64,000 nucleotides of DNA from a bacterium (GCA_030606215.1 JAUWGW010000006.1:9336-73335); one strand, 5' to 3'. Shown: positions 48,020 to 55,321, counted from the stretch's first letter. Program-made: numbers and translations. Notes: generated from the letters alone by a model not told the origin.

Positions 48020-49336
48020 CTATTTTGGCGCCATACAAAAATCTTTTGCTTTCGCCAGGTCTTCGGGTATCAAAAATCTTACAGTTGTTCGTTCAATAGC
48101 ACGCTCACCTCGGAGTGCTAAATTTAAGCAATAAGCTTTGTCAGGTTTATATGTGCCAATGAAACTCCTAAGGGATTTGCTTATCTTGAATTCTCTTAAA
48201 TCAACAGCTTTGACTTCAAAAGGAATGGGTTTGAGACTTGGAATCACAAAGTCTACTTCTGCGCCAGCCTTGGTCCGCCAAAAGTTTATGGGACTTGAAT
48301 ACTTCAAGCGCTCGCCCAAACAAAGGTAGGAGAAATTCTCAAAAAGGCTGCCCTTATCAGGGCGAAATTCGAAATCCCCAAAGCTTCCGATAGCAAAATT
48401 TCTTATACCGTGGTCACGAAAATAAACCTTAGGGCTTTTCAAGAGTTCTTTCCTGGGATTTCTATGAAAAGGTTTTACAAAATCCAGGATAAAGGTTTGT
48501 TCCAAATAAAACAGGTAGTGTTCTAGTGTATTCTTATGGATACTCAAAGTGTTGGAGAGCTCATGCTTATTTACCAGATTTCCTATTTGCGAAGAAAGAA
48601 TCTTAACAAGGTTGCGGAATGCCTCTTCGTTTTCGATGTTAAGAAAAGACTTGATATCCTTCTCGATGTAACTTTGGAATATCTCTTTGAGAAGCTGCAG
48701 TTTTAAATCTTCTTCCTTGGCCAGAGCAACTGCAGGGTATCCTCCATATGTGACATAATGATTCAAAACTCTTCTAAAGTCCTCTTTTTTCTCTATGACT
48801 TCATTGACACTCTTCCTTGGGAATAGGGCCTGAGAAAGTTCTTCCAGGTTGAAAGGATTAAGACGAAAAACTACCTTTCTTCCAGTAAGAGCTTCATGAA
48901 TTTTGCTTCTAATCTCCAGTGAACTTGAACCTGAGACTATCAGTTTAGCTGGTAGGTGAAGATCATAAATACCTTTTAGAAATAAACCCGGTTCCTTTAA
49001 ACGTTGAACTTCATCAATCAACACGTAGGACTTCCTTTTTGATTTGATTATTAAATCAACCAAATAATCCGGATTATCAAAAAACTGAAGCTGATGAGGA
49101 ACATCAAGGTTAAAATAGTATATGTTGTCAGTCTTCGGGAGAAGGGCATCGTTTATTAACTGATAAAGGAGAACACTTTTTCCGGTTTGGTGAGCACCAG
49201 TAACAATAATTATTTCTTCTCTCTCAATCCATGGTGCTATTTTCTCTTTTATCTTACGCTGAACTACCTGGGGTGGCAGCTTTACCCCAAGCCTTTCCAA
49301 CTCCTTTTTCTTTTTGCTATATCTCATTTTTGCCAT
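48020..49336 (-). CDS. AAA ATPase with DUF4143 C-terminal domain
   Basis: A 438-residue protein. The Walker A motif GAHQTGKS is at residues 47-54, Walker B YVLIDEVQRL near 104-113 and a sensor-like SGSSSLEIR near 138. The C-terminal half is DUF4143, with WRTKAGAEVDFVI near 348, a nuclease-like ExD/ExK motif seen in this family. Such ATPases are abundant in mobile and defence regions, but their function is unknown. It has its own promoter at 49381-49408. Confidence 0.88.
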   Translation of the reverse strand: MAKMRYSKKKKELERLGVKLPPQVVQRKIKEKIAPWIEREEIIIVTGAHQTGKSVLLYQLINDALLPKTDNIYYFNLDVPHQLQFFDNPDYLVDLIIKSKRKSYVLIDEVQRLKEPGLFLKGIYDLHLPAKLIVSGSSSLEIRSKIHEALTGRKVVFRLNPFNLEELSQALFPRKSVNEVIEKKEDFRRVLNHYVTYGGYPAVALAKEEDLKLQLLKEIFQSYIEKDIKSFLNIENEEAFRNLVKILSSQIGNLVNKHELSNTLSIHKNTLEHYLFYLEQTFILDFVKPFHRNPRKELLKSPKVYFRDHGIRNFAIGSFGDFEFRPDKGSLFENFSYLCLGERLKYSSPINFWRTKAGAEVDFVIPSLKPIPFEVKAVDLREFKISKSLRSFIGTYKPDKAYCLNLALRGERAIERTTVRFLIPEDLAKAKDFCMAPK

Positions 49337-49460: not shown

Positions 49461-49570
49461 GTTTAGACCTTGAGTCGTTTGTGAGGCGTTTATTAGGCAT
49501 TTTAGGCATTTATTAGGCGTTTGAGCCCTTTGTGAGCCTTTCATGATTCCTTTGAGTCCTTTCAATCAAA
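49461..49570. repeat. Degenerate tandem repeat, about 20-bp period
   Basis: Units such as GCGTTTATTAG, GCATTTTAG, GCATTTATTAG, GCGTTTGAG and CCCTTTGTGAG follow one another, alternating roughly 11 and 9 bases. The pattern fades rightwards (CCTTTGAG, TCCTTTCAAT). No gene is seen on either strand. Confidence 0.6.
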
Positions 49571-49615: not shown

Positions 49616-49786
49616 TCATAAGCTCGTTGCTGCAAGAATATATAACCTTTTTCCTATTTTGCGCAGGGGACAGCCTGTTTTCTCCCTCCAGTTACGCCTT
49701 TGAATGGTATTTCTTGAAATTCCCAGGATCTCTGATATTTGTTCAACAGTTAAAATATCTTTACACTCATACTCTGACTTTTCCAC
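49616..49786 (-). CDS. Small HTH (excisionase/MerR-like) protein at the end of the hsd operon
   Basis: A 56-residue protein starting at the GTG at 49786, inside the end of hsdS. It reads DILTVEQISEILGISRNTI then QRRNWREKTGCPLRKIGKRL, the helix-turn-helix plus wing of HTH_17/excisionase-type proteins. The ribosome site is weak, so it is probably translated by coupling to hsdS. It could regulate the operon through the palindrome at 53739-53771. It is short and easy to miss. Confidence 0.72.
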   Translation of the reverse strand: MEKSEYECKDILTVEQISEILGISRNTIQRRNWREKTGCPLRKIGKRLYILAATSL

Positions 49787-50603
49787 TTAATAATACCTGC
49801 GTCAAACCTTTCTTGATATCTTCCAATCTTTCCTCATGAACAATTTCCTTATTTATTTCTTCATCAACAGATGACAAAATTTCAGCAATCTTTTCCTGTT
49901 CGGCAAGAGTGGGAAGAGGAATTTTTGTCTTCTTAAACTTCTTATGGCCGATTCCGCGGGTCAGCAATTCCTGCATCAACCCCCTTTTTAGCTCTTTCGT
50001 CTTTTCTATGATCTCCTTCCTTTTCTCAATTGCCTCATCTACGGTTGATAGGATCTTGGCGATCTTTTTTTGTTCGGGCAGAGGTGGAAGGGGTATTACA
50101 ATTCTCTCAATGCTTTTTCCACTAACATTAGGCTGTGCTCCGCCGGCAGCATCTATGAGCAAATCTTCTTTGAACCTTTTCGTCAACACTACCTGTCCTA
50201 AATATCTCTTTGCAATACGGTTTGAATCTTCAATCATAAATCTGCCAACACGTTGGTTAAGCAATGCTGGTAGGTCTTTCTTTGAAACAACCCCTATTTT
50301 TCCGGTTGTTGCACCGGACATAGCAACAAGTACATCCCCATCTTCAAGCAGAAAATCACTAAATTCCTTAGCAAAAGAGGCTGGAAGATATACACATTCA
50401 TTTAACATAATCCCACTAGAGGTTACATTTGATATTCTGACTAAAGGCACACCTCTTCCTTTATAATCGCTACTTTCAAAAGCGAATCCTCCCTGGAGAC
50501 GTACTGTTTCCCCAAGATTGACAATTTCCCAATCCACTGGAATCTCGCCAATCTCCGTTTTCTTAAATTTGTCTTCGGTTCTTAAGCTATCTGCTTGTAC
50601 CAC
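49767..50603 (-). CDS. hsdS: Type I restriction-modification specificity subunit lacking the second TRD
   Basis: A 278-residue HsdS, well short of the usual 380-450. Residues 12-170 form one target-recognition domain (KKTEIGEIPVDWEIVNLGE ... VSGKSIERIVIPLPPLPEQ), then the coiled-coil spacer (IAKILSTVDEAIEKRKEII ... RGLMQELLTRGIGHKKFKKT). Where a second EIGEIPxxW-type domain should follow, the protein jumps straight to KIPLPTLAEQEKIAEILSS and the second coiled coil. The second TRD thus appears deleted. Half-sized HsdS proteins can pair to recognise palindromic sites. Start is GTG, overlapping the winged-helix gene by 17 bases. Confidence 0.85.
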   Translation of the reverse strand: MVQADSLRTEDKFKKTEIGEIPVDWEIVNLGETVRLQGGFAFESSDYKGRGVPLVRISNVTSSGIMLNECVYLPASFAKEFSDFLLEDGDVLVAMSGATTGKIGVVSKKDLPALLNQRVGRFMIEDSNRIAKRYLGQVVLTKRFKEDLLIDAAGGAQPNVSGKSIERIVIPLPPLPEQKKIAKILSTVDEAIEKRKEIIEKTKELKRGLMQELLTRGIGHKKFKKTKIPLPTLAEQEKIAEILSSVDEEINKEIVHEERLEDIKKGLTQVLLSGKVRV

Positions 50604-51639
50604 TTTTGGCTCCCAAGACCCTGGTTATAAAGTTCTGGAATTCTTTCTCATATTTTTCAGCAGTAATATTGATGTACGGAGCAGGAGGTAAGTCAAGACC
50701 GCTTGCCAAAAATCCAATACTGATTCCCTCCATCGCCTGACGCAGCTTTGAACTCCTCATATAATCTGACCCGGTTTTTTGAATATCGGCTAAGACATTC
50801 CACACATCTGTCAGCGCAGCGTAGAGTGAAATCCAATCAACCCAAAGCGGCTTTTTCGCATCTTCGTATTCCATTCCACAGAGAAATTCCCACCACCTTT
50901 TCTCTGGCAGCCAATACTCTATCTTCCGTTTACCTTTAATGCGCGTAAGCACTAAACCTGATTCTGCAAGTTCAATCAATGCATCCTGTGTTCCCCGAAC
51001 AGACAGGCCGATTGCCTTAGCTACTTCGGAAGGATGTCCTGCGCCGTAGACTAAAAGATACAAAATACATTCAGAGCGTGAACCTATACCAAACATTGCT
51101 CTCAACAGAAAACGGATGGTGTTTCCTGCCATGACCGGTACGGGCTTCGACGTTTTCCGCACCGTAAAACTTTCGCGCAAAAATCCGTATTCTTTGAATA
51201 TGTTTGATTCCGTAACCGGTTTTGGGTAGGGCTTTCCTTCTTTCGTTTTGAAAAGCATTTCGTCCTGCGTACTTGTTTTAGCTCTATGGAGCAATGCTAA
51301 AGTCTTCCATTTACGCTGGTATGTTCCTGCCTCGCGCGACAGAAAACAAGCAACCGCGCTCATAAGTCGTTGCGTTCTTTCATCTTTCTGTTTCATAATT
51401 CCGCGCAGGCGCTGAATATCAATCCACTTTCCGTTTACAACAAGCCAGTCGAGTATCTCATCAAAGAAGCGTGGCTCGTACCGACCCATTTCCAGTGAAA
51501 AGAGAAGGAGAGCTTCCAGATCGATCGCCCATTCATGCTTTGAGCGCGCACCACCTGCTACACCCAGGGCAGACCACTGCCCCCAGAGAAAATCTAAAAC
51601 TTCCTTCAGAAAGAATTCCCTAAAGTTTATCTGCGACAT
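50587..51639 (-). CDS. Winged-helix protein of the hsd operon, unknown function
   Basis: A 350-residue protein I do not recognise as a named family. Residues about 185-245 look like a winged helix (RSECILYLLVYGAGHPSEVA, then KAIGLSVRGTQDALIELAES and a wing LTRIKGKRKIEYWL). The N-terminal 180 residues are helical and Trp-rich. It overlaps the nucleotidyltransferase gene upstream by 20 bases and hsdS downstream by 17 bases, so the three are translated together. Together with the upstream gene it resembles the regulator/antitoxin plus nucleotidyltransferase logic of AbiE-type modules, although sequence similarity to AbiEi is not obvious to me. Confidence 0.7.
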   Translation of the reverse strand: MSQINFREFFLKEVLDFLWGQWSALGVAGGARSKHEWAIDLEALLLFSLEMGRYEPRFFDEILDWLVVNGKWIDIQRLRGIMKQKDERTQRLMSAVACFLSREAGTYQRKWKTLALLHRAKTSTQDEMLFKTKEGKPYPKPVTESNIFKEYGFLRESFTVRKTSKPVPVMAGNTIRFLLRAMFGIGSRSECILYLLVYGAGHPSEVAKAIGLSVRGTQDALIELAESGLVLTRIKGKRKIEYWLPEKRWWEFLCGMEYEDAKKPLWVDWISLYAALTDVWNVLADIQKTGSDYMRSSKLRQAMEGISIGFLASGLDLPPAPYINITAEKYEKEFQNFITRVLGAKSGTSR

Positions 51640-52225
51640 CTTTGTAACCTATTTCTTTAAGAAAATCCTTAAGGACTTTTCTGTAACCCTCGGAAATGTC
51701 ATGTGTCATACTCCAACGAGCCGCTTTTTCTAATTCCTCTGCAATAGGTTTTAATGCAAGTAGGTCACCGTAATGAACATCACCTCTATCCCGATCTACT
51801 ACAGCATAGAGCTTAAAATGAATCTGGTCATACCGGCTGAGAAAGTGAATTGTTAGATTCTTTCCATAAGTACGGGTTTCCACCCTATCCATAAGACCGT
51901 CAGGCAATCCTAAATCCATAACAGACGCCGGTCCGGGATTAAGCCAGTTGTCGGTCAAATCAAAATCTTTCTGCACTCTCGTGGCTGCATCCTCAACTGC
52001 AGGATTCATAGGTTTGGTGGCTTTGACTAAAGTAATAGAGCCGTCACTCTTCTTATCTACAAATGCGACAACATCCACGTCTTCGGTAACACGGCTCACG
52101 TACCCCAATATATTGAGAGCTGCCCCTCCGCACACAACCATTTCGCAGTGCATCACCCCCCGCACTTCCAGTTGCTCGGCGAGTGCTGTGAGTACAGATT
52201 CTATTTGTTGTTTGCCTTCAAACAT
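51620..52225 (-). CDS. DUF6036/AbiEii-like nucleotidyltransferase
   Basis: A 201-residue protein with the nucleotidyltransferase core MVVCGGAALNILGYVSRVTE then DVDVVAFV: the GG pair at 33-34 and the metal-binding D49-x-D51. A later acidic/charged region (DQIHFKLYAVVDRDRGDVHY) is typical of DUF6036-like NTases, many of which are toxins that modify tRNA or proteins. It lies two bases after hsdM and overlaps the winged-helix gene. Toxin activity is inferred from family and context only. Confidence 0.72.
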   Translation of the reverse strand: MFEGKQQIESVLTALAEQLEVRGVMHCEMVVCGGAALNILGYVSRVTEDVDVVAFVDKKSDGSITLVKATKPMNPAVEDAATRVQKDFDLTDNWLNPGPASVMDLGLPDGLMDRVETRTYGKNLTIHFLSRYDQIHFKLYAVVDRDRGDVHYGDLLALKPIAEELEKAARWSMTHDISEGYRKVLKDFLKEIGYKDVADKL

Positions 52226-52227
52226 GC

Positions 52228-53715
52228 TTACACCCTATAACGCAATTCTCTTAAATAGCCTGACACCTTCCTATCAATATTTTTATATTCTTCCTTGAGT
52301 TTCTTCAGGTCATCGATAGTTTTCTGAATATCAATGTTCTCTTCTTGTTCTGTAACATCAATATATCGTGTGATGTTAAGGTTGTGGTCGTTCTCCCTTA
52401 TTTCATTAATCCGTACAGGACGACAATACTTATCTATCGTGCTATATTCTCCAAAGGCTGATACAATTTTCTCAATGTCTTCTTTACGCAGCTTATTCTG
52501 CTTCTTTCCCTCTTGATAGTCGCCTGCACCGTAAAGGAAGAACGCCTTTCCTCTCCTCTCTTTAGGCTTGTCTCTGTTGATTATGAACAAGCACGCAGGA
52601 ATGCCCGCGCCATAGAATAACTTAGGTGGCAAGCCTATGACGCCTTCAAGGAGGTCTTCTTCGACTATACCCTTTCTAATCTTTCCTTCTGCCCCTCCGC
52701 GGAATAAGACTCCATGCGGTAGGACAACACCGACTCTCCCTTTAGGGTTCGCAATAGCTATCATGTGCTGGACAAATGCGTAGTCACCGTATCCCTTCGG
52801 AGGTATCCCGAACCTGAACCTTTTGTAGGGGTCATTCTGAGCATTTTCATAGCCCCAATTCTTGAGTGAAAAAGGCGGATTTGCTATTACAATATCAAAT
52901 TGCATTAGTTGTCCCTTGGTGAGCAGCTTAGGTTCCCGTAAGGTATCAGCTCTCCGGATCTTTGCACTTTGTAATCCATGAAGGAGCAGATTCATCTTGC
53001 AGATTGCCCATGTCCCAACATTGATCTCCTGACCATACAGAGCAATGTTCTTAGGATTTTGCCCCTTTCCCTGTAAGTGGCACACGGATTGTATCAACAT
53101 TCCACCTGAACCACACGCAGGGTCACAAATTCTCATTCCTTCTTTCGGATCCAGAATGTCTACTAATAGCTCAACAACCTCCTTGGGTGTATAGAACTCC
53201 CCTCCTTTCTTGCCAGCGCTTGAAGCAAATTGGGCGATAAGATATTCATATGCATCACCCAGGATATCGGGTTTCTCCAAATCTTCATTTCTCAACCTAA
53301 TTTTGGAGAAGTGGTTGATAAGCTGGGAAAGTATATGGTCCGGCAGCCGGTCTTTATCGTTAAAGTCAACAGCAGAAAGAACGCCTTCCAGAGTTTCCGG
53401 GTTTTCTTCTTCCAAGGAGTCGTTTGCTTTGTTGATAGCTTCACCTATGTTCTGGGTCAGTGATTTAAGATAATCCCATCGCGCCCTTTTGGGAACGAAA
53501 AAGTCGTGATAATCGCGGTCTTCATACGCAATCTTTTTGCTGCCTGTCTCATGTAGTATTCTCTCAACCTCTTCGTCAAACACGTCGGATAATCGCTTCA
53601 AAAACAAGAGCCCGAAAATGTAATTCTTGTAATCTGCGGCGTCAATATGACCCCGCAGAATGTCCGCGGATGCCCAGAGGTGATACTTCAGGGCTTGCGA
53701 GTTTACCTTTTCCAT
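52228..53715 (-). CDS. hsdM: Type I restriction-modification system DNA methyltransferase subunit
   Basis: A 495-residue adenine-N6 methyltransferase. Residues 1-130 are the HsdM N-terminal domain (DILRGHIDAADYKNYIFGLL, LFLKRLSDVFDEE), SAM-binding motif I is DPACGSGGM at 198-206 and catalytic motif IV is NPPF at 279-282; GGEFYTPKEVVELLV is the usual link. The C-terminal helix contacts HsdS. No hsdR is found on either side, so unless it is elsewhere the system methylates without cutting. It is the first gene of a five-gene operon with promoter and operator at 53739-53792. Confidence 0.95.
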   Translation of the reverse strand: MEKVNSQALKYHLWASADILRGHIDAADYKNYIFGLLFLKRLSDVFDEEVERILHETGSKKIAYEDRDYHDFFVPKRARWDYLKSLTQNIGEAINKANDSLEEENPETLEGVLSAVDFNDKDRLPDHILSQLINHFSKIRLRNEDLEKPDILGDAYEYLIAQFASSAGKKGGEFYTPKEVVELLVDILDPKEGMRICDPACGSGGMLIQSVCHLQGKGQNPKNIALYGQEINVGTWAICKMNLLLHGLQSAKIRRADTLREPKLLTKGQLMQFDIVIANPPFSLKNWGYENAQNDPYKRFRFGIPPKGYGDYAFVQHMIAIANPKGRVGVVLPHGVLFRGGAEGKIRKGIVEEDLLEGVIGLPPKLFYGAGIPACLFIINRDKPKERRGKAFFLYGAGDYQEGKKQNKLRKEDIEKIVSAFGEYSTIDKYCRPVRINEIRENDHNLNITRYIDVTEQEENIDIQKTIDDLKKLKEEYKNIDRKVSGYLRELRYRV

Positions 53716-53738
53716 GAGAGGTTCCTTTCCTTATGTGC

Positions 53739-53771
53739 TGTATATTTACTTACTACGTAAGTAAATATACA
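53739..53771. promoter_or_regulatory. 15+15 bp palindrome over the hsdM -10 (operator)
   Basis: Arms TGTATATTTACTTAC and GTAAGTAAATATACA are perfect reverse complements around a TAC spacer. It covers the -10 and expected transcription start of hsdM, so a dimeric repressor bound here would shut the operon. Confidence 0.75.
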
Positions 53772-53792
53772 ACATGTTAGGAGAGTTGTCAA
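53764..53792 (-). promoter_or_regulatory. hsdM operon promoter
   Basis: Minus strand perfect TTGACA (53792-53787), 17-base spacer, TATATT (53769-53764). The gene starts about 50 bases downstream. Confidence 0.75.
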
Positions 53793-53858
53793 GTTTTATT
53801 TCTTATCTGTATAGTTTGACTGCACTAACAGTGAGGATAAACTATAATAAGAGGGATA

Positions 53859-54184: not shown

Positions 54185-54274
54185 TGGCGGAGAGGCCGGG
54201 ATTCGAACCCGGGGTGGAGTTGCCCCCACAACTGCTTAGCAGGCAGCTGCCTTCAACCGCTCGGCCACCTCTCC
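54185..54274 (-). tRNA. tRNA-Ser (anticodon GCU)
   Basis: A 90-base class II tRNA with encoded CCA. The acceptor arms GGAGAGG/CCTCTCC pair, the anticodon loop is CTGCTAA (anticodon GCT) on stem GCTGC/GCAGT, a long variable arm follows, and the T-arm is CCGGGTTCGAATCCCGG. The hsd island lies on its 3' side, the usual side for integration at a tRNA gene. Confidence 0.95.
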
Positions 54275-54541: not shown

Positions 54542-55321
54542 ATGGCTTCAAAAAATACTATTTTAACGGAAAAACGGCTCAAAGATATTGAGGATATTAT
54601 TGCTTCTTTTGGTCGAATTGTATCCACTGACGATGTTTATAAGACTTTAGGCGGAAAATACTCAAAATTTGTCCTAAAGAAAAGGATATACGAGTTACGA
54701 GAAAAAGGGTGGCTTATCCCTTTAAAAAGGGGGCTTTATTTTATCTCGGATATTTCTTCACGTGGTTTTGTGAATATCTCGCCTTTTATCATTGCCAGTG
54801 CTTTTGATAAAAATTCTTATATTTCATTAGATTCGGCTTTAAGTTTCTATGGTCTCTTTGAGCAGATGCTACGCACGACTTCATCTGTAACCAGCCTTAA
54901 GTCCAAAAAATACGTATTTCAGGATAACACTTATCGATATCTCAAGATAAACAAAAAACTATATTTTGGTTTTAGAACTGAAAATTTGGAAGGCTATTAT
55001 GTCAAAGTAGCAGAGCTTGAAAAGGTAGTTTTGGATTACCTCTATTTTAAGAATGACACCTATTCCATAGATTTGTTGTTAGAGAAACTACAAGAGGCAA
55101 AAGATAGGCTCGATTTTAAGAAACTCTTTAATTATGCACGAAAATTTCCCGAAACAACCAAGAGAAAATTAGGATTTATTTTAGATTTATTTAAAATAGA
55201 TACCGAAGAGCTGCACAAGGATGTAGAAATGAAAGGCTATAGTAAGCTTACTCCCAATTCAAAAAAATTTAACGCAAAATGGAGGCTTTATTATGAAGAT
55301 AGATTTACTGGACAGGTCTAG
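54542..55321 (+). CDS. AbiEi-type antitoxin / transcriptional regulator
   Basis: A 259-residue AbiEi-family protein of the type IV AbiE toxin-antitoxin and abortive-infection system. An N-terminal winged helix (DIEDIIASFGRIVSTDDVYK ... LKKRIYELREKGWLIPLKRG) is followed by the AbiEi_1/4-type domain with ISLDSALSFYGLFEQ and VKVAELEKVVLDYLYF. AbiEi normally represses its own operon and counters AbiEii. Its stop overlaps an AbiEii fragment (29 bases), so the operon was intact once. Confidence 0.85.
   Translation: MASKNTILTEKRLKDIEDIIASFGRIVSTDDVYKTLGGKYSKFVLKKRIYELREKGWLIPLKRGLYFISDISSRGFVNISPFIIASAFDKNSYISLDSALSFYGLFEQMLRTTSSVTSLKSKKYVFQDNTYRYLKINKKLYFGFRTENLEGYYVKVAELEKVVLDYLYFKNDTYSIDLLLEKLQEAKDRLDFKKLFNYARKFPETTKRKLGFILDLFKIDTEELHKDVEMKGYSKLTPNSKKFNAKWRLYYEDRFTGQV

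Follow-up and report, generated by a model that had tools for sequence, protein, structure and literature searches.

Between the type I genes hsdM and hsdS of the bacterial DNA analysed here, a gene for a nucleotidyltransferase (NT) and one for a winged-helix protein (WH) are found, and the gene for the restriction subunit is missing. What is such a pair doing inside a type I operon, and has the nucleotidyltransferase taken the place of the nuclease, as the initial annotation proposed? The window, meaning the whole 64,000-nucleotide stretch (GCA_030606215.1 JAUWGW010000006.1:9336-73335), belongs to a 1.52-Mb draft genome of 34 contigs that is 93% complete.

Organization of the operon

Five genes on the minus strand are read behind one sigma-70-like promoter. 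They nearly touch or overlap, as had been described from the sequence at the outset: the gap between hsdM and NT is 2 nt, and the NT/WH, WH/hsdS and hsdS/HTH junctions overlap by 17–20 nt. The features, in the direction of transcription, are as follows.

53810..53846, minus strand: candidate 37-bp inverted-repeat operator TATAGTTTA-TCCTCACTGTTAGTGCAGT-CAAACTATA, 17 nt upstream of the -35 box
53764..53792, minus strand: sigma-70-type promoter TTGACA-N17-TATATT before hsdM, the one strong promoter for the operon
53736..53774, minus strand: second palindrome, each arm 18 nt, spanning the -10 box before hsdM; window copy only
52228..53715, minus strand: hsdM, 495 aa, with N-terminal domain and NPPF motif (Pfam HsdM_N and N6_Mtase)
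51620..52225, minus strand: NT, nucleotidyltransferase, 201 aa (Pfam DUF6036), probable toxin
50587..51639, minus strand: WH, winged-helix protein, 350 aa (N-terminal half helical, winged helix at ~180-256, C-terminus helical), probable antitoxin/autorepressor
49767..50603, minus strand: hsdS, 278 aa (Methylase_S), which keeps TRD1 and the two conserved helical regions but has TRD2 deleted
49616..49786, minus strand: HTH gene, 56 aa (HTH_17), which overlaps hsdS at its end; hsdR occupies this position in relatives

HsdM matches the NCBIfam model hsdM (TIGR00497) above its cut-off, and NT is assigned to DUF6036 (PF19502) with 37.9 bits against a cut-off of 23.6, above the Pfam gathering score. 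WH matches no Pfam family, and no homologue of the 56-aa HTH protein was found in related loci. Relatives have TTGACA, or a sequence close to it, at the corresponding position, again with a spacer of 17 nt. The palindrome over the -10 box, for which no shuffle gave even a 15-nt arm, is absent from relatives and is possibly the site of another regulator. Besides a tRNA, no RNA elements over curated cut-offs were detected in the operon.

Several neighbouring features were recorded. Short direct repeats (tttattaggc-like units; 49480-49545) lie just past the operon, where hsdR would be expected, and just downstream is an AAA_14/DUF4143 ATPase gene (PADLOC PDC-S01; 48020-49336). On the other side are a tRNA-Ser(GCT) gene (54185-54274) and, beside it, an AbiEi-like antitoxin gene (54542-55321; PADLOC AbiEi, E 1e-33) with no adjoining AbiEii.

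Distribution of the NT-WH pair

A two-sequence WH profile searched against 386 genomes reached the cut-off in 23, of which ~18 exceed short winged-helix matches, and the NT-WH pair, for the most part unlinked to hsd genes, occurs in about 5% of the sampled genomes. An NT ORF or fragment lies directly 5' of WH, usually overlapping it, in 16 of 17 fetched neighbourhoods; the exception, L054, has an NT fragment only. When the same 386 genomes were searched for NT, 17 of the 18 genomes recovered were WH genomes, and NT and WH are neighbours in nearly every genome that has either. The weakest NT hit (G188; L132, 1483-2671) is a more distant NT with a different, overlapping partner of 223 aa, an indication that such nucleotidyltransferases are paired with several types of partner.

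A GTDB scan added 55 loci, mostly labelled in their record titles as Verrucomicrobiota, Elusimicrobiota, Spirochaetota or other candidate phyla. These are an uneven sample, since the scan used a four-row alignment of window-type WH sequences (a broad 17-row alignment had no conserved stretches); additional phylum-wise searches that began from NT yielded few genomes. No WH homologue was detected in phage records or IMG/VR contigs and plasmids gave a single short winged-helix match, on which grounds a phage or viral origin was rejected. Around stand-alone pairs, known defence genes are not in excess relative to distant genes on the same contigs, in a small sample with roughly comparable counts. 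At one locus (L109, 8977-14226), WH is fused into a 1749-aa frame with a P-loop NTPase region, directly downstream of NT; the C-terminal stretch of this fusion appears nuclease-like by eye, and Pfam gave weak AAA matches only.

Type I operons that carry the pair

The order hsdM-NT-WH-hsdS was found in 15 distinct relatives from several phyla, with NT damaged or replaced in some. NT and WH are a conserved couple that recurs at this position, and in this respect the initial annotation was supported. In these relatives, WH is preceded by an HsdM 67-81% identical to that of the window, and the gene between the two is NT, an NT remnant or, in L070 (1519-3039), an AAA_14/DUF4143 ATPase. WH is followed by hsdS in every relative whose contig continues. 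In the WH tree, the window-type hsd-linked copies share one clade (99/91) with the hsd-free copies L136, L072 and L056. Less similar HsdMs adjoin the pair in L084, L085, L087, L092 and L094, with varying gene orders. Judged from these comparisons, NT-WH is a toxin-antitoxin (TA)-like cassette that has become established, together with a control site of its own, within a type I operon family of several phyla.

The gene for the restriction subunit is present in all nine relatives whose contigs extend more than ~1 kb beyond hsdS (L048, L061, L062, L063, L065, L066, L068, L069 and L111), and eight of the nine also carry a YgjP-like metallopeptidase gene (PF01863). The distance from hsdS to hsdR is within ~160 bp in six; other genes intervene in L066, L068 and L111. 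This interval holds variable cargo (one Schlafen/AlbA_2, the others without a Pfam family), and thus the operon family acquires extra genes at more than one place.

Given hsdR in every testable relative, the window is the exception and its lack of hsdR a secondary loss; no other hsdR-less copy was seen among those with sufficient contig. That no hsdR adjoins the window operon, as first noted, was borne out, and a search of its own genome (93% complete) with the HsdR of a relative gave no cognate match either. The only HSDR_N match there is on contig C13, in a different, complete type I system. This system (L016, 1211-9603: hsdR, a transposase-like gene, an AbiEi-AbiEii pair, hsdM and hsdS) has another winged-helix and nucleotidyltransferase pair within its hsd genes, between hsdR and hsdM. 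No hsdR remnants were found 3' of the window hsdS, and hsdS itself has lost TRD2 by a near-exact in-frame deletion, from KFKKTKI to PLPTLAEQ (junction near 49920). Two TRDs are present in nine of ten aligned HsdS proteins of relatives, that of L064 being itself cut down. Of the components of a type I RM system, the window thus has an HsdM with both domains and neither a two-TRD HsdS nor an HsdR. One-TRD S subunits can act as homodimers (PMC3874165), and by analogy the window HsdS could do so. The operon has probably been reduced to a solitary methyltransferase and an intact NT-WH module; compared with its relatives, the window copy, with hsdR and the second TRD lost secondarily, is to all appearances a stripped-down version of a wider arrangement.

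A candidate operator at the hsdM and NT promoters

An inverted repeat of 37 bp, with the general form TATAGTTTA-N19-TAAACTATA, precedes hsdM in window-type operons. The form in the window is TATAGTTTA-N19-CAAACTATA, and the same half-sites and N19 spacing are found before hsdM in L060, L061, L062, L063 and L065, making six operons with the window. In the same clade, the repeat also stands before NT in hsd-free L136 (N19) and L072 (N20). Scanning 1.02 Mb with up to two mismatches allowed gave nine sites (one on a duplicate contig), all at these promoters, and the window's own genome has one exact match to the operator search pattern. Of 11 upstream regions that are non-redundant, 9 contain the half-site AACTATA, compared with a mean of 1.4 and a maximum of 5 in dinucleotide shuffles. 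The operator is altered in L066 and L067 and unrecognisable in L048, L068, L075, L110 and L111. Outside window-type operons, other palindromes just 5' of NT are commoner than in shuffles (15 of 44 at p<=0.05), a count that upstream-gene terminators could inflate and whose binomial P of ~2e-9 assumes independent rows, which relatives are not.

Because hsd-free copies have the operator too, the simplest candidate for the protein that binds it is WH, the DNA-binding member of the pair. The sequence points to WH as a promoter-binding autoregulator; for the sensing of methylation state by WH or by HsdM-HsdS, which had been proposed at first, we found no support. With the operator in front of hsdM, WH would set the expression of the whole operon. 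Two small, coupled, overlapping genes with an operator or palindromes at their promoter are sequence features of TA systems, and the pair has them.

Predicted structures and active site

The NT model (mean pLDDT 89.9) matches MenT1 (Z 8.2; 4.2 A over 151 residues), ANT(2'')-Ia (8.2), a fungal nucleotidyltransferase-like protein (Z 8.2) and MenT3 (7.3). The likeness to MenT toxins is weak: identity does not exceed ~20% and the best Z is 8.2, a score that antibiotic nucleotidyltransferases reach as well. Since the fold scores are modest, the assignment of NT is carried by the shared motif hG[GS]...D-h-D. Across 14 NT sequences, G33, G34, D49, D51, K138 and D154 are invariant and R45 is nearly so. 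By position, and aligned by eye, G33-G34, R45, D49, D51, K138 and D154 correspond to G49-G50, R63, D67, D69, K173 and D192 of AbiEii. Toxicity of AbiEii required the counterparts of these NT residues, except for the second motif I glycine (PMC3985639). The motif III arginine and the exact motif IV of AbiEii are not conserved in NT. NT looks like a toxin-type nucleotidyltransferase with an intact active site.

The AlphaFold2 model of WH (mean pLDDT 84.2) has a clear ArsR/MarR-like winged helix at ~180-256 (Z up to 10.1). Searches with Foldseek and VIA-align matched this winged helix alone and gave no whole-fold match.

One-sided decay of NT

A costly toxin is expected to decay while its partner is kept. 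Among the 63 loci where no contig end cuts NT or WH, NT is deleted, fragmented or frameshifted beside an intact WH in 11, and the reverse was seen in none (sign test 11:0, p ~0.001); the NT of L060 has an in-frame TAG besides, and counting it gives 12. The search that began from NT showed the same pattern. Selection of the loci relied on short motifs from the first quarter of WH, and any break further along the protein would still have come to light. Draft-assembly errors are possible for some of the NT breaks, but the longer WH should suffer them at least as often. A pure antitoxin would not be needed once NT is lost, and the retention of WH in these loci indicates that it may have a further role.

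Interpretation

Counterparts in NT of most residues needed for AbiEii toxicity, one-sided decay of NT and an inverted repeat that travels with the pair together suggest a TA-like module. On balance, we think it somewhat more likely than not that NT is a toxin and WH its antitoxin and repressor, and that the operator of the pair now controls a type I RM operon. NT, of pol-beta type, would stop growth by nucleotide transfer to RNA or another cell component, and WH, its translationally coupled partner, would act as repressor of the unit by binding the 37-bp inverted repeat and would also neutralise NT. In members of one clade, the module lies within a type I operon, flanked by hsdM and hsdS, and its operator is now upstream of hsdM. 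If a phage were to switch off the operon or WH, or to titrate either of them, NT might be freed as a second line of defence. In the genome studied here, hsdR and half of hsdS were lost later, with NT-WH left intact. The sequences themselves show the conserved pair and its linkage to hsdM, hsdS and hsdR, the loss of hsdR and TRD2 from the window copy, an operator that accompanies the pair, intact active-site residues and the one-sided decay, whereas toxicity, neutralisation, binding of the operator by WH and any part in phage resistance are inferences.

A broader proposal is more tentative, and we would give it somewhat less than an even chance: that a new and widespread TA family (DUF6036 with a 350-aa WH) put a type I operon under its own operator, so that restriction and toxin are co-regulated by the antitoxin and, in the nuclease-less window copy, the toxin is the sole remaining effector. 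The pair, the WH family and the accompanying operator appear undescribed in the literature searched, in which no paper naming DUF6036 was found, itself weak evidence.

Alternatively, the chief role of WH could be to regulate transcription of the RM operon, in the manner of RptR and C proteins, with NT as an accessory RNA- or metabolite-modifying enzyme that is not a toxin. The operator at the hsdM promoter, the retention of WH where NT is broken and the ATPase in the NT position of L070 would all fit such a role. However, NT and WH are also paired in hsd-free contexts across many phyla, and decay of NT alone is what a costly toxin predicts; we regard this alternative as unlikely, though worth keeping in mind.

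A similarly doubtful reading, given slightly less weight, concerns the window copy only and is compatible with the toxin and antitoxin roles favoured above: the operon may be a decaying, non-functional type I remnant with NT-WH as a passenger. Loss of hsdR and the cut-down hsdS are consistent with decay, as is the cut-down hsdS of L064, whereas hsdM, NT, WH, the promoter and the operator are all intact, and a one-TRD S subunit can function as a homodimer (PMC3874165).

In the initial annotation, NT was taken to occupy the place of the nuclease, and one hypothesis was a working nuclease-less defence in which NT is activated by loss of methylation or by foreign DNA. In the window, the NT, WH and HsdM frames remain open and the operator intact despite the loss of hsdR, and the genome yielded no cognate hsdR, as this proposal would have it. 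Yet hsdR follows hsdS in nine of nine testable relatives, which means that the pair and the nuclease occur side by side and that no replacement took place; moreover, the window hsdS is down one TRD, no other hsdR-less copy was seen where the contig suffices, and nothing ties NT to methylation. NT as an hsdR substitute was therefore rejected, and the nuclease-less defence as a whole is improbable.

Least credible is a reversal of roles, with NT as antitoxin and WH as toxin: MNT-type nucleotidyltransferases are antitoxins in HEPN-MNT pairs, but WH has a DNA-binding winged helix and, in an alignment inspected by eye, no conserved RX4-6H HEPN motif, no HEPN family match was obtained at the thresholds used, and WH stays intact where NT is destroyed, which is unexpected of a toxin.

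Comparison with known systems

With NT as the presumed toxin and WH as its antitoxin, one close counterpart is AbiE, a type IV TA system that likewise has a nucleotidyltransferase and a winged-helix partner in one operon, with inverted repeats at the promoter and catalytic motifs that are similar in part (PMC3985639, PMC7319586). The gene order is reversed, NT being first in NT-WH, and the proteins differ: WH has 350 aa with a central winged helix, and NT is DUF6036 rather than DUF1814. NT scores 21.4 bits against AbiEii (PF08843, DUF1814), just under the cut-off of 22.5 and far below its match to DUF6036. Comparison of WH with AbiEi (COG5340) profiles gave a probability of 0.3%, and PADLOC reported no AbiEi match to WH. 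Membership of AbiE was rejected on these grounds, the partner being unrelated to AbiEi and NT being DUF6036. MenT1 and MenT3 resemble NT in fold, whereas their identity to NT is ~20% or less and their partner protein is different. MADS was also rejected, with MAD1, MAD2 and MAD5 scoring 14, 89.3 and 36.5 bits against cut-offs of 80, 720 and 400.

An effector or TA pair within a type I operon is of a kind already known. EcoprrI/PrrC (PMC3874165) likewise nests the gene of a latent growth-stopping effector, a role that is putative for NT, in a type I hsd operon; however, the effector in that case is an anticodon nuclease that the RM complex holds, whereas NT is a nucleotidyltransferase with a dedicated partner. 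In the RRDM island of enteropathogenic E. coli, the order is RptR-HsdM-HsdS-DarTG2-HsdR-M48 (PMC12255303). Both arrangements embed a TA pair, a presumed one in the case of NT-WH, in a type I RM operon, and both have a gene for a metallopeptidase downstream of hsdR (YgjP-like, PF01863, in the relatives of the window operon) and a dedicated regulator that acts on repeats at the operon promoter, putatively WH in our case. They differ in that NT-WH lies between hsdM and hsdS, whereas DarTG2 lies between hsdS and hsdR; in that the presumed regulator is the WH of the pair itself, on a 37-bp inverted repeat, whereas RRDM has RptR and TAGCTA; and in that the window copy is without hsdR and the peptidase.

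TA pairs nested in type I operons, such as PrrC and DarTG2, are thought to back up restriction, and NT-WH is another pair, retained in one such operon across several phyla. Since its operator is found both with and without hsd genes, the control of restriction genes by an antitoxin can be asked about directly, and the window copy, in which the nuclease is gone and the pair kept, is a natural experiment on the role of such a pair without restriction.
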